Shown: one piece after another, positions 29,021 to 58,596 of the stretch | How the letters are laid out: each line of letters starts with the position of its first letter | How positions within the stretch are numbered: position 1 is the first letter of the stretch | Assembly (NCBI GenBank): GCA_029261555.1 | Contig: JAJDBB010000039.1 | Location: forward strand, 1 to 64,000 | Length of the DNA: 64,000 nt | Direction: 5' to 3' | Source of the DNA: Nitrospinaceae bacterium | Lineage (GTDB): Bacteria; Nitrospinota; Nitrospinia; Nitrospinales; JACRGP01 | Program-made: the position numbers and the translations under genes | The notes under the pieces: generated by a model | What the model saw: only the letters and a program-made list of their open reading frames with translations | Databases searched by the model: none | What the model was told of the DNA's origin: nothing

Positions 29021-29250
29021 GTTGCCGTGAATGAGGTCTGCGGGTAGCTGAAATGTTTTTTAACGCTCTATGGTTATGTTAATTTAAAGGCGGAGAAAAA
29101 CAACCCTCAAAAAGGAATTGTTCTTAACCTCCTCCCCCCCCCTCCGCCACGCTCCGGATAATGAAATAGTTGGCGCTTCCCGGTTTTGCGGTTAAAATAT
29201 TTAAAATCCTTTTATTCGGAAGCCCAGTCATTTTAATCAGCGGGGGAGCC

Positions 29251-31041
29251 ATGAAACCAGTTCAGATATTTGCGCGAGCGCTTTTGACGTTTCTACTTAC
29301 ATTTTTGCTGGCCGGCGTTGCGATTGCCCAAACGGCGCCTTCCCTGTTCATGAATCCCTCGGTTCAAACGGACGCTTCGGGCGTCCATGGCCCTGAAGTG
29401 ACGCGTTCGCGGCCCGTGGATATCAATTTTAATCTGTTGACGCAAGCGGACCCGGCGTCCGGCGCCGTGCCTCTGAACCTGAACCTCTTCGACGACGCGT
29501 CGCTCACAACTCAGATCGATGGGATGAAATCCAAGCCGTCCGGCGCCCGCATTTACACCGGCTCTGTTGAGGGCGGGGGTCCGTTCAGCCAGGCGACTAT
29601 CGTGGTGAACGGCGACACCGTGGCGGGAGATATTTTTGACGGTCACAATCTTTATCAAATCCGCAGTCGAGGGAACGGTTTGCACGAGGTTCGCGAAATC
29701 GACTCGTCACAATTTCCACCGGACAGCGATCCCATCCCGGTTTACTCCCCCCCGACGCAAGGAGACGCACCGGTCGCTAACGCGGACGACGGTTCGGTCA
29801 TCGACGTGCTGGTGGTCTACAGCGACGACGCAAGAGTTCAGGCGGGCGGCACGACCGCCATGGAAACCGAGATCGATCTGGCCGAAACATTAACCAATAC
29901 TTCTTATACCAACAGCGGCGTCGACCATACGATCAACATAGTTGGCAAAACGGAAGTGGCTTATAACGAAACGGGATTCTCCTTCACCCAGGCGTTGAAC
30001 GACGTGACGGGAACTAGCGCCACGCAGGATTTAAGCGCGGTGCGAACGCAACGCGATACGCTGGGCGCCGACCTGGTGGTGTTTCTCGTGAAGGGAGACG
30101 GGAGTTTTTGCGGGCTGGCCTGGTTGATGACCACCGTTTCTTCCACCTTCGAGACCAACGGTTTTTCCGTCACGGCGGAAGGGAGTTGCGCTACGACCAA
30201 CTTCACTTTCGGGCACGAAATCGGGCATAACAGCGGAGCGCGGCACGACCGGACCGCCGACCCGACGGACAACTCTCCGTTTACTTTCAATCATGGGCAC
30301 ATCCTTTCCGGCAACAGCTTTCGCACGATCATGGCGTTGTCGACCGGGACGCGCATTCAGTTCTGGTCCAATCCGGCCGTCAGTTCCTCCGGCATTCCAA
30401 CCGGTATCGCCGAGGGCAACGCCCTTGCCGCCGACAATCAAAAAACGCTGGATCAAACCGCGCTTACGATATCCAATTTTCGCGCCTCCGTTTCAAGCGT
30501 TTCCAATACGGCGATACCGAGCAACCTGTTTACCCGATCCAAAAAACATCGGGTGGTTTCCCCATATTGGCAGGCGGATTTAGGCATCTACACTTTCATC
30601 GCCATTTCCCATCCATCGCTTTCCGGGATGAACTCCCAGATCGGCGTTTCCGTCAATCCGGTGTTGGACGACGTTTCCGCCATCTACGGAACCCCGGCGG
30701 AATTCACCATCCTTTCGGGAGAAACCAAGAGGTTATTCATCACGGGAGCGAATAATACCGTCGCCTCTCTTACCGGCATCACGGGAGCCAGCCTCATCAC
30801 CGGCACCGATACTATCGGTAACCAGGGGCAGTTGATTGTCAACCCGGTGGCCAGCAACCCGGAGAAGTTTTTGGGAATCGCAAGTTCCGCCAGTCGGGGG
30901 TTTCCGGATATCACCGCGCTTTCCTTCTGGGGAGCGGTGGTCATCCCCACAAGCTCCACGGGGTTCGCCATGGAATTTATCGGCGATATGCAGGATTCGC
31001 GCGCGTTTCAACAAGCGGGAAATTTTAGCGGCGTGAATTGA
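29251..31041 (+). CDS. Secreted zinc metalloprotease (reprolysin-like) with novel C-terminal domain
   Basis: The start at 29251 gives a clean signal peptide (LLTFLLTFLLAGVAIAQ). A propeptide-like region (~residues 35-180) precedes a zincin domain with HEIGHNSGARHD (HExxHxxGxxHD, ~residues 322-333), preceded by paired cysteines and followed by a Met-turn candidate RTIMALS. This fits the M12B/reprolysin-5 clan. From ~residue 431 to the end (596) lies a separate domain: VVSPYWQADLGIYTF, ISHPSLSGM, FWGAVV, TGFAMEFIGD, ending NFSGVN. The same domain forms the whole mature part of the two secreted proteins at 56.4-57.7 kb. Its role could be surface attachment, recognition or secretion; that is inference. 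Confidence 0.88.
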   Translation: MKPVQIFARALLTFLLTFLLAGVAIAQTAPSLFMNPSVQTDASGVHGPEVTRSRPVDINFNLLTQADPASGAVPLNLNLFDDASLTTQIDGMKSKPSGARIYTGSVEGGGPFSQATIVVNGDTVAGDIFDGHNLYQIRSRGNGLHEVREIDSSQFPPDSDPIPVYSPPTQGDAPVANADDGSVIDVLVVYSDDARVQAGGTTAMETEIDLAETLTNTSYTNSGVDHTINIVGKTEVAYNETGFSFTQALNDVTGTSATQDLSAVRTQRDTLGADLVVFLVKGDGSFCGLAWLMTTVSSTFETNGFSVTAEGSCATTNFTFGHEIGHNSGARHDRTADPTDNSPFTFNHGHILSGNSFRTIMALSTGTRIQFWSNPAVSSSGIPTGIAEGNALAADNQKTLDQTALTISNFRASVSSVSNTAIPSNLFTRSKKHRVVSPYWQADLGIYTFIAISHPSLSGMNSQIGVSVNPVLDDVSAIYGTPAEFTILSGETKRLFITGANNTVASLTGITGASLITGTDTIGNQGQLIVNPVASNPEKFLGIASSASRGFPDITALSFWGAVVIPTSSTGFAMEFIGDMQDSRAFQQAGNFSGVN

Positions 31042-55480: not shown

Positions 55481-56332
55481 TCAGGAAGCCGTTATTTTTT
55501 CCAGCAGGCTTTTATATTTTTCGTTTTCCGGGGCCAGTTTCAGGGCCTTTTGGATCAACTCTCCCGCCTTTTCATTTTCCCCTTTGCCCGCCATAACATC
55601 CGCCCATTGGTAGTAGGCTTCCAGATAATAAGGATTAATAGCCAGGGAATTCTGAAACGACGCGGCGGCCTGATCGGGTTTATTCTGGTCCTTGTAGGTC
55701 ATGCCCAGGTTGAAGTGAGTCAACATACCTTTGGGATTGGCGTCTAGAGAAGCTTGTAAAATCTTTTCCGCTTCCTCGAGTTTTCCAGTCAGGCGAAATA
55801 CGTCCCCAAGGTTATTGAGGTAGGTGGAGTTGCGTTTTTCCTGCTGAATGGCCTTGTTGTAATATTTGGCGGCCTGGTCGTAATTCTTGGAGTCTTTGAA
55901 CAGGTTACCCAGGTTATTATAGGCCTTGGAGTCGTTATCGTCTTCCTTTGTGGCGATCGCGGTTTCCCAGCTCTTTCCAGCGTCGTCCTTGTTGCCCTCC
56001 ATATAATAAGTCATCCCCACGTTGACAAAGGCTTGAACATAGTCGGGTTTAACTGCGAGAGCCTTATTGAAACTATCGCGCGCCTCTGGGTATTTCTTTA
56101 ATCCAAACAGTACCAGGCCTTTTTTGTCGTAGGCCATAAAGTTATTTGGATTGAACTTGACCGCCAGATCGAACTCGTCAAGAGAGTTTTGATAAAGCGA
56201 ATACTGGGCGAATTCGATTCCAAGTTTGTAATGGGAATCGGACTGTGCCGTATCGACCTTGGGTTTTTCGGGACTTTGGGAGCAGGAGACCAAGGAGGCA
56301 AGAATTAACAGATAAGAAAAGATTTGTTTCAT
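55481..56332 (-). CDS. TPR repeat lipoprotein
   Basis: The lipoprotein signal LLILASLVSCSQ (Cys ~residue 17) is followed by seven or so tetratricopeptide repeats filling the rest of 283 aa (e.g. AYNNLGNLFKDSKNYDQAAKYYNKAIQ, THFNLGMTYKDQNKPDQAAASFQNSLA). It is likely a periplasmic or outer-membrane-attached scaffold. The start lies only 20 bp after the strong terminator of the secreted-protein operon, with no clear ribosome binding site, so it may depend on read-through or a promoter within the upstream gene. That position makes a role in assembling or exporting those proteins an attractive but unproven idea. Confidence 0.88.
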   Translation of the reverse strand: MKQIFSYLLILASLVSCSQSPEKPKVDTAQSDSHYKLGIEFAQYSLYQNSLDEFDLAVKFNPNNFMAYDKKGLVLFGLKKYPEARDSFNKALAVKPDYVQAFVNVGMTYYMEGNKDDAGKSWETAIATKEDDNDSKAYNNLGNLFKDSKNYDQAAKYYNKAIQQEKRNSTYLNNLGDVFRLTGKLEEAEKILQASLDANPKGMLTHFNLGMTYKDQNKPDQAAASFQNSLAINPYYLEAYYQWADVMAGKGENEKAGELIQKALKLAPENEKYKSLLEKITAS

Positions 56333-56352: not shown

Positions 56353-56385
56353 AAAAAAAAACGGGGCCAACCGAAGTTGGCCCCG
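56353..56385 (-). terminator. Strong rho-independent terminator with UUCG loop
   Basis: On the minus strand a perfect 10-bp stem (CGGGGCCAAC / GTTGGCCCCG) closes on a C(UUCG)G tetraloop and is followed by nine T residues. It directly follows the 56.4-kb secreted-protein gene and precedes the TPR gene. Such a strong stop suggests heavy transcription of the two-gene unit. Confidence 0.95.
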
Positions 56386-56405
56386 CGAAAATATAAAAAC
56401 TAAAC

Positions 56406-57050
56406 TTAGTTGAGACCTCTAGCGGTACCAGAATTAATGCCGTCAGTCGCACCATATTGTGTCGTGTTACTCAGGATTGCGGAATCAGCCGCGTCTCCAA
56501 TGAACTCCATGGCAAACCCGGAAGCGGTAGACAGGATAACAACCGCGCCCCAGAAATTCAACTGGTTGAGGTTGTTACGCAGAGTCGTCGACCCGGGAAA
56601 GTTAGCGCCAAGAGGCACCGAAGGATTTGCTCCGGTCGTAGAAGAAGCCCGGATAAAGCCAAAAGCATTCGTTCCACTGGTGGTAGCAATAAAACGCAAG
56701 GTGCTGCTAGCTGCGCCAGGAACTCCTGGGGAAATGGTGGTGTTGGTTGCGGAGATAAAAACCCGATGGGTTTCGCCGGCGCTAATTGTGAAAGTTACGC
56801 TGGGATTAGCCGAACCTGCGTCACTTGTTGCGCCAACCGCCGCAAGGGTCAAGCCAATTTTGGAAGAAGCGGTATTCAGCGAGGGATGGGAAATACCAAT
56901 AAAGGTATAAATCCCACCGCTGGTATCAGCCTGGTAATAAGGCGAAATTACCGTGCTATCCCGAGAGGTGTCTCGATCAGCATAAGCATTTTGAGCAACG
57001 ACCATAAGCCCAAAAAGACCTATAATCATTAAAGTAGAAAATCTTTTCAT
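56406..57050 (-). CDS. Secreted protein, novel SPYWQ/FWGAVV domain (stand-alone copy B)
   Basis: The start at 57050 (MKRFSTLMIIGLFGLMVVAQNAYA) has an AAGGAG site eight bases upstream and a Sec signal peptide cleaved after AYA; the track start is 13 codons too early. The mature protein (~190 aa of 214) is one domain: TVISPYYQADTSGGIYTFIGISHPSL, TFTISAGETHRVFIS, QLNFWGAVVILSTASGFAMEFIGD, ending ARGLN. It shares these blocks with the next gene upstream and with the C-terminus of the 29-kb metalloprotease. It is rich in Ser, Thr, Gly and Ala, without cysteines, as in surface or matrix proteins. Function unknown. Confidence 0.85.
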   Translation of the reverse strand: MKRFSTLMIIGLFGLMVVAQNAYADRDTSRDSTVISPYYQADTSGGIYTFIGISHPSLNTASSKIGLTLAAVGATSDAGSANPSVTFTISAGETHRVFISATNTTISPGVPGAASSTLRFIATTSGTNAFGFIRASSTTGANPSVPLGANFPGSTTLRNNLNQLNFWGAVVILSTASGFAMEFIGDAADSAILSNTTQYGATDGINSGTARGLN

Positions 57051-57104: not shown

Positions 57105-57707
57105 TTAGTTGATGCCCGAAAAATTACCAGTGGGATCAAACGTACGCGAATCTGCCTGGTCGCCAACAAATTCCATGGCAAAACCGGTGGCGGTGTTCAG
57201 AACCACGATGGCGCCCCAATAGCTCAAGGCGGTGATATCGTACAATTCACAATGGAGGGATCTTTGCGTATTAGGCTCGCAATTATTCAACCCAGCATTC
57301 GTGGCAACTGCAGTAAAGCGCAGGTTACCAACCGTAGAATTGGTCGTGTTGGTGATCAGGAACGTGGCTTCAGAGTTCGTCGTCGTGTTTACGGCAAACT
57401 GCGTCCCAAAAGACGTGGACGGAACGATGAACAATTTTTGAGAAGCGTTGTTGCTAACCGTAAACGTGGTGCTGGTGCTTACTGCGCCACTAGAGTCCAA
57501 AGCTTGCATGTTGACGCCAATCCGGGTGGACATGCCGGAGAGCGAAGGATGACTGACAACTACGAAGGTATAAACTCCACCCTCAGACTGCCAATAAGGA
57601 CTAACAACTGATTTACCATTAGATATGGCGGAAGCGTTCCCAGCAAAGAGCAGAGAGGCCGCTATTACGGTAATGGCTAAAAACCGTTTGAAAATATTTT
57701 TTTTCAT
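57105..57707 (-). CDS. Secreted protein, novel SPYWQ/FWGAVV domain (stand-alone copy A)
   Basis: First gene of a two-gene unit; 200 aa. Signal peptide MKKNIFKRFLAITVIAASLLFAGNASA; AAGGAG eight bases before the ATG. Mature domain: VVSPYWQSEGGVYTFVVVSHPSLSGMSTRIGV, TTFTVSNNASQKLFIV, DITALSYWGAIVVLNTATGFAMEFVGDQADSR, ending NFSGIN. Its C-terminal sequence is closer to the metalloprotease domain (NFSGVN) than to copy B. Two cysteines, in NNCEPNTQRSLHCELYD, could form a disulfide. It lies 54 bp upstream of copy B. The long AT-rich upstream region should hold the promoter. No known family recognised. Confidence 0.85.
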   Translation of the reverse strand: MKKNIFKRFLAITVIAASLLFAGNASAISNGKSVVSPYWQSEGGVYTFVVVSHPSLSGMSTRIGVNMQALDSSGAVSTSTTFTVSNNASQKLFIVPSTSFGTQFAVNTTTNSEATFLITNTTNSTVGNLRFTAVATNAGLNNCEPNTQRSLHCELYDITALSYWGAIVVLNTATGFAMEFVGDQADSRTFDPTGNFSGIN

Positions 57708-58596
57708 TTACTTTTCTCCTTTGAATTCTTCTTCAAATATATTCCAAGGATCCTATTGAGATCACATTTACTTCGTTTTTAAAGCCACTCTACAAATACC
57801 GGCTACCCACCTCCCCTCAAAGGCCAAAACTTCTTTTTATTGTTTGAGAATAGTTAATTTTACCACTTATGTTAAAAGCCGTGTTTAAGCAAGCTTTACC
57901 ATACATTTTAATCATTTAAGACAATACATTATATTCAATAGTCAAACCATGTCAAGAAAAAAACCTAATAATAACCCCAAAAATAGGGTCATTATATGGT
58001 CGTTTACCAAAGGATTAGGCAGCCAATTGGAAAAATTGATCAAGATTTCGCGGTAAGTTTAAAGGTTATATTTACGAGCACTGTGTGTGTTTTGGCGGAT
58101 CCCTTTGTATTCTTCGGGGTTCTTGGCAAAGATTTCCTAGGGGAATTTCATGGTGAAAAGCATGTTCCGTTATTATAGCGCAAAAAACTAATATATTTGA
58201 TCATTTTTCTTTTAGGCCAATCCACATTCTAATGAGAGAGGCTCGAATCGGCCTTACGATAGGTTAATTGTCTACCTAGCGGAACCGGAAGCGAATTTCT
58301 TTAGTTAATTTGAATAGATAAGCGGGGTGAGTTTTCCGGGTCCTATTCCGTTTCCGGAACAAAATTACCCTGTTGGTTGGCGCATTTGACTCTCTTCCTG
58401 TTTGATTCTGTTTATTCCGTAAATTTTTCTCCTTCGCTCTCGCGGGGAAAGCTGCCAGTTTGTTGCGGAGCGTTCAGACGGTTGAGTATTTTAGCGAAAT
58501 TTGTTATAGTTTTAGTAAATTTTATTCATTTTATCCATAATTAAGAAGTCTGGAATCTCAATCGAACGTTAATTCAATTTTCAAGGACGCCGCCAA
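57708..58596. other. Long AT-rich intergenic region between secreted-protein unit and pilus operon
   Basis: Almost 900 bp, clearly more AT-rich than any coding part of the window, between two divergent units. The only track ORF of note (57996-58178, 60 aa) has no ribosome binding site or recognisable features. No dispersed-repeat module, tRNA or CRISPR is seen. It presumably holds the promoters and leaders of both units; a small RNA or a decayed gene cannot be excluded. Confidence 0.6.

Follow-up and report, generated by a model that had tools for sequence, protein, structure and literature searches.

A conserved domain shared by a secreted metalloprotease and two stand-alone secreted proteins of Nitrospinota: a possible C-terminal surface-targeting tag

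Genes and signals at the locus

The window, by which we mean the whole 64,000-nucleotide stretch of Nitrospinaceae DNA that was analysed, contains three copies of one domain. The first is the C-terminal tail of a secreted metalloprotease, while the other two are stand-alone secreted proteins, here called A and B, that are encoded in an operon together with a tetratricopeptide repeat (TPR) lipoprotein. The features referred to below are these:

29251..31041, plus strand: secreted reprolysin-like (M12B-type metzincin) metalloprotease with a C-terminal A-type domain (Reprolysin_4, E 1.8e-16; also Reprolysin_5 and Reprolysin_3)
29797..30387, plus strand: Reprolysin catalytic domain of the metalloprotease (Pfam PF13583, residues 210-406 of the 623-aa ORF)
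30532..31038, plus strand: C-terminal tail domain (A-type) of the metalloprotease, ending NFSGVN (HMM match; AF2 beta-sandwich, pLDDT 85)
55481..56332, minus strand: TPR lipoprotein with lipobox LVSC and some seven TPRs, encoded by the third gene of the A-B operon (orthologues, TPR families, co-occurrence)
56361..56386, minus strand: strong intrinsic terminator (GCGGGGCCAACTTCGGTTGGCCCCGT followed by T8) between B and the TPR lipoprotein gene (hairpin; recurs in type-1 loci)
56406..57050, minus strand: stand-alone secreted protein B, a signal peptide, one domain and a short extension, ending ARGLN (HMM, BLASTP against the tail)
57105..57707, minus strand: stand-alone secreted protein A, 200 aa, a signal peptide and one domain, ending NFSGIN (HMM, BLASTP against the tail)
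57928..57955, minus strand: consensus sigma-70 promoter TTGACA-16-TATAAT, matching at 12 of 12 positions, 220 bases upstream of A (sequence match)

The metalloprotease carries the zinc motif HExxHxxGxxHD (HEIGHNSGARHD in the translation) and matches PF13583, and so meets the criteria for an M12B-type reprolysin (metzincin). Its ORF is open from a TTG at 29170; the ATG at 29251 follows the sequence GGGGGAG and begins the signal peptide. The coding range given for B likewise sits inside a slightly longer ORF.

In pairwise BLASTP comparisons the metalloprotease tail is 41% identical to A over 180 columns (E 7e-40) and 39% identical to B (E 3e-29), while A and B are 35% identical to each other (E 2e-27), and a three-way alignment contains many invariant columns. 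The three are thus homologous over their whole length, with a similarity far beyond chance. The original prediction, that an undescribed domain occurs here as a protease tail and as two secreted proteins, was correct in its coordinates and held in every library that we searched, although it missed both the operon that joins A and B to the TPR lipoprotein and the fact that the tail resembles A rather than B. Pfam recognized Reprolysin in the protease but had no family for A, B or the tail; the domain had no credible match in NCBIfam or PHROGs, and profile searches of PDB sequences with it returned chance-level matches only. The match to a described family that would have refuted the original prediction was thus not obtained, and identity with a named family was rejected on the basis of these searches. 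A viral origin was also rejected, as tblastn against plasmids and phages produced no match and the matches in BFVD were all weak. No structured RNA was found in the window, and no description of a C-terminal sorting domain in Nitrospinota was found in the literature searched, which did not include most subscription journals.

A and B adjoin in nearly all genomes that carry the domain. At what we call type-1 loci the order A, B, TPR lipoprotein is syntenic across families f1-f4, usually beside a conserved divergent block of genes that in the window starts with a TPR gene and a RodZ-like gene. Orthologues of the TPR lipoprotein are 43-54% identical across f1-f4 and lie directly 3' of B or of a single domain protein. 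In family f5 the lipoprotein is 32% identical and is preceded by a single domain protein; genus g7, too, has the TPR gene with a single domain protein. The arrangement of the f5 and g7 loci suggests that the ancestral unit consisted of one domain protein and the TPR lipoprotein.

Across 77 Nitrospinota genomes the domain and the TPR lipoprotein occur together in 32, the domain alone in 8, the TPR lipoprotein alone in 3 and neither in 34 (Fisher p 8e-11); the same comparison by genus gives 11, 1, 1 and 11 (p 1e-4). These counts take no account of relatedness or of gaps in metagenome-assembled genomes (MAGs), and one lone TPR gene (G047) lies at a contig edge with its neighbours missing. No TPR gene adjoins the type-2 A-B pairs of genera g4 and g14, and four genomes (G026, G032, G040 and G051), in which only a type-2 pair was found, lack the lipoprotein. 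Within the lipoprotein, conservation is higher at positions on the concave face of the TPRs than at the remaining non-core positions (p 3e-6).

The promoter upstream of A also matches at 12 of 12 positions in G001 and G003 and at 11 of 12 in f3, f4 and g15, so that promoters with 11-12 matches recur in f1, f3, f4 and g15; in several other genera the search found none above shuffles, and at most f2 loci the promoter is not seen. Nearly all type-1 loci have a hairpin equivalent to the window's terminator after their last domain gene, whereas the type-2 loci of g4 and g14 all lack it. Because a consensus promoter and a conserved terminator frame A and B, we infer that these two are abundant products and that the lipoprotein is expressed by read-through, but this inference is drawn from sequence alone and there are no expression data.

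Distribution of the domain and the proteins that carry it

Searched with the HMM built from the three window copies, the window's own genome contains nine copies of the domain, and at least one copy occurs in 40 of the 77 Nitrospinota genomes. Thirty-nine of these belong to the window's order and one (G061, with a single copy) to another family of the class; many of the genomes counted are incomplete MAGs. Positive genomes carry 1-11 copies each, apart from the Nitrospina sp. MSP assembly (G003), which has 46 to 47 copies on ORFs of up to 5370 aa. This expansion to about 46 copies includes runs of adjacent client genes (for example L140, L141 and L153), and its cause is unexplained.

A scan of the genomes of 85,462 species returned 59 loci. 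All come from Nitrospinota apart from two, which lie on short contigs labelled as Proteobacteria. These two (L041 and L042) are binned as Gamma- and Alphaproteobacteria, but their client tails nest among those of the window's genus and they share an isolate series name (OFTM) with a Nitrospinaceae MAG, so that they have probably been mis-binned in that series. Apart from these two, the family was not found outside Nitrospinota, with the reservation that the scan relied on specific peptide patterns and that distant relatives elsewhere could escape it. Within the phylum, both the domain and the TPR lipoprotein are absent from all eight genomes of genus g8 (G011, G013, G015, G017, G019, G023, G027 and G029), four of which are at least 94% complete. 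Genus g2 (L087, L091) has a lone divergent domain protein that ends in KARAMK or KARAVK, without B, clients or the TPR lipoprotein.

The original prediction had suggested looking for further copies fused to other secreted enzymes, and such copies were found on dozens of unrelated secreted proteins. Our survey of architectures covered 170 different proteins with an intact C-terminus, 84 of them at least 300 aa long. In 83 of these 84 long carriers the domain is at the C-terminus, the protein ending no more than 26 residues beyond it, and each long carrier has a single copy of the domain and no transmembrane helix. The 19-residue hydropathy over the last 60 aa has a median of 0.98 and exceeds 1.6 in only 2 of the 170 proteins. 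The final residues of the long proteins are [ST]GxN in 66, GPxAP in 7 and RGxN in 3. The lone exception to the C-terminal position is an MSP protein of 1508 aa (L145:13053-17576, the same protein as L065), in which the domain occupies residues 59-220 and is followed by Calx-beta-like and RHS repeats.

The other domains found on long carriers are extracellular ones (Reprolysin, Peptidase_S8, SBBP, NHL, GSDH, FG-GAP, Calx-beta, He_PIG and BACON). A simple and crude scan recognized a signal-peptide-like N-terminus in 42 of 60 complete carrier ORFs, and start codons are unclear in many of those without one. The tailed reprolysin is the most widespread type of client: it is found in f1, f2 and f3, and several genomes encode it in one operon with their type-2 A-B pair. 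Most tails, on dozens of clients, are attached to non-proteases. A-B pairs occur without any clients in about a dozen genomes, whereas a client is hardly ever present where a free domain protein is missing, so A and B have a function independent of clients. Since A and B are present without a tailed protease in G007 and in all five g10 genomes, the reprolysin is not essential to them.

Terminal peptide, tree and predicted fold

In a tree of 139 domains, B proteins form a single clade (SH-aLRT 98) and all of the client tails included fall with A. The closest free relative of the tails is free A, and tails group with the A of their own lineage. B-type tails were found later on three long proteins (L171, L180 and L181), which are FG-GAP and Calx-beta proteins. 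Without the terminal peptide, the f2 client tails (g4, g14) group in a single clade (SH-aLRT 95) that excludes the A proteins; one client (G016) could not be placed. Client tails and A proteins of f2 nevertheless split in parallel into members ending in GPAAP and members ending in SGVN, and clients of either ending occur in genomes with two A-B pairs. Similarly, both A and the client end in TSQP in G010 and in DSTSGIN in G014. The score over the last ten residues between a client and the A of the same genome is 28.7, against 23.3 when shuffled within families and 13.3 when shuffled overall, and none of 5000 shuffles of either kind reached the observed value. We have thus shown that the terminal peptide of clients changes in concert with the A of the same genome.

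No intact A with the matching type of ending was among the sequences compared for three genomes (G018, G032 and G052). The type-1 A gene of G018 (L172:949-1497) has a TAG right after the MEFIGDM block, leaving the terminal peptide untranslated, and a sequencing error is possible; this genome keeps a GPAAP-type client despite the early TAG. Gene conversion within operons could possibly have produced part of the match in endings where client and A adjoin; the GPAAP clients examined lie on contigs other than those of their A-B pair.

The AF2 model of the tail, made with 82 sequences, is a beta-sandwich (pLDDT 85, pTM 0.80) whose last ~20 residues are conserved yet have a pLDDT near 50; the model of B is weaker (pLDDT 68). 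Both models independently find TM1070 (1nc7) as a structural neighbour, with TM-scores by target of 0.61 and 0.62 and by query of about 0.4, probabilities of 1.00 for the tail and 0.98 for B, and Foldseek E-values of 7e-3 and 9e-2, and both have a domain of GH50 agarases as another neighbour. Foldseek gave no match below E 0.001 for either model. Of the three copies, the comparison of predicted folds that the original prediction called for covers the tail and B, and it rests on their shared neighbour and not on direct superposition.

TM1070, an eight-stranded beta-sandwich, belongs to the ASRT superfamily (PF07100), whose sequence criteria the domain does not fulfil. PF07100 matched none of 82 domain members at E 5, and over the 77 genomes it gave nothing above cut-off, while control genomes including T. 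maritima do match. The published ASRT signature SHE..C..N (PMC2739507) is absent from the domain. The same work requires a Trp at the start of strand 1 and an Asn at the end of strand 2 (PMC2739507), and this is not met, as strand 2 ends in SHPS and not in Asn; the Trp of SPYWQ is present in A-type members and mostly missing in B-type members. The domain is therefore predicted to be an ASRT-like beta-sandwich with a disordered but conserved C-terminal peptide, a likeness of fold only.

Possible role and comparison with known systems

The reading that we favour, with a probability of about 0.55, is that the domain is a Nitrospinota-specific C-terminal tag for surface targeting and assembly, with A and B as the scaffold. 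A and B would be secreted and probably abundant structural proteins, exported by Sec, which is likely given their signal peptides. The co-transcribed TPR lipoprotein would help them to leave the periplasm through an outer-membrane translocon that is unknown, and it would most likely read the free C-terminal peptide of the SGVN, GPAAP or RGIN type, an inference for which there are no binding data. TPR domains are known to recognize C-terminal peptides, as in PEX5 and HOP, and this lipoprotein is the best candidate receptor because it is linked to A and B, co-occurs with the domain and has a more conserved concave face. A and B may then build a mixed structure on or around the outer membrane, and enzymes and large adhesin-like proteins, among them the metalloprotease of the window, would be placed in or through this structure by a C-terminal A-type domain of their own, with a few using a B-type domain. 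The abundance of A and B, their location, their assembly, the receptor role and the export route are all inferred, and there is no experimental evidence that any of these proteins lies on the surface.

Several observations count against this reading. The type-2 pairs of g4 and g14 and the four genomes without the TPR gene are exceptions, as is the g2 domain protein, which has neither a TPR gene nor a GxN ending. Concave TPR faces are often conserved in any case, the MSP protein carries its domain near the N-terminus, and most f2 loci lack a consensus promoter. The original prediction had offered a shared address, a self-assembling unit, or recognition between protease and substrate as explanations. 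The first two have been strengthened by the position of the tail, which is almost always exactly C-terminal, and by the co-variation of the terminal peptide with A, whereas the third is now the weakest, since the majority of tails belong to proteins other than proteases and A and B occur in many genomes without the tailed protease.

Nitrospinota are dominant marine nitrite oxidisers, and no description of their cell-surface organisation was found in the literature searched. A dedicated tag of this kind gives a one-step listing of the proteins that these bacteria put outside the cell, among them proteases, subtilases and giant repeat proteins, and accounts for many large ORFs that would otherwise be anonymous. 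A bolder version, which is less likely than not, is that this is a self-contained surface-display system unlike any described. In it, coat subunits and client tag would be the same domain, their free C-terminal peptide would be read by the TPR lipoprotein, and where a cell has duplicated systems these would separate their clients by GPAAP versus SGVN. If the lipoprotein does read the terminal peptide, this would be a bacterial parallel to the eukaryotic TPR receptors that recognize C-terminal peptides, and with two such codes side by side in one cell its specificity would be directly testable.

The strongest alternative, which remains possible, is that the domain is an outer-membrane secretion signal only, parallel to the C-terminal domain (CTD) of the type IX secretion system (T9SS), and that A and B, in the manner of PorA, are its small substrates or accessory proteins and build no structure. 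The strict C-terminal position, the conserved disordered terminal peptide and the T9SS-like range of clients support this, as does the existence of PorA, a small T9SS CTD protein of Porphyromonas (PMC7712824); a TPR lipoprotein, PorW, also occurs in T9SS. Against it, many genomes have client-less A-B operons, the layout of promoter and terminator points to A and B as the main products, and there is no match to the T9SS tail models. It is unlikely that the domain is instead a carbohydrate-binding module with the ASRT (ASRAH) fold, by which proteins dock to polysaccharide of the cell itself, with A and B as lectin-like matrix proteins. It is true that the best shared structural neighbour comes from the ASRT superfamily, a group of predicted sugar-binding proteins that often form tetramers, and that the agarase domain is another neighbour; but the Foldseek E-values, the TM-scores by query, the lack of a PF07100 match and the missing signature all weigh against it, and it leaves unexplained both the co-variation of the terminal peptide with A and the linkage to the TPR gene. 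Finally, a role of the tailed reprolysin in maturing or shedding A, B and other tailed proteins, with the tail as an exosite, has in its favour the wide occurrence of this client, its operon with type-2 pairs and the analogy with PorU, a CTD-bearing T9SS protease that removes CTDs (PMC7712824), but is very unlikely given the genomes with A and B and no tailed protease and the dozens of non-protease clients.

By analogy, and returning to the favoured reading of a targeting and assembly tag, the domain would work like a T9SS sorting domain without being a member of that family. As with the T9SS CTD (TIGR04183, TIGR04131), it is the last domain of Sec-exported and functionally varied proteins, including proteases, beta-propeller and repeat proteins, and this is a likeness of function. 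The two CTD models found no match in the three window proteins, and the SprA/Sov translocon (PF14349) was found in 0 of 77 genomes in a search where no control genome matched either. The domain also differs from the CTD in its length (about 165 aa versus about 80), its conserved free terminal peptide, its conserved A-B pair with a TPR lipoprotein and its occurrence only in Nitrospinota. The reprolysin, as the most widespread client, might play a part in maturation as PorU does. The type II secretion system was considered as a dedicated exporter and set aside, as 70 of the 77 genomes, with and without the domain, have GspD-like secretins, which do not discriminate. With ASRT/ASRAH proteins (PF07100, TM1070), of which extracellular versions are known, the domain may share a beta-sandwich, predicted independently from the tail and from B, but it has no sequence match to them, lacks SHE..C..N, is longer and is used as a C-terminal tail. 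Like PEP-CTERM, GlyGly-CTERM and LPXTG, it is a C-terminal sorting tag common to many unrelated secreted proteins of one organism, although those are short signals with a transmembrane helix and a basic tail and here there is a whole domain without such a helix. The proposed arrangement, for which binding data are lacking, would resemble dockerin/cohesin or SLH proteins in that a dedicated domain would join enzymes to a surface scaffold; it has no sequence relation to those systems, and differs from them in that the A-type tail and the proposed scaffold protein A are homologous to each other.
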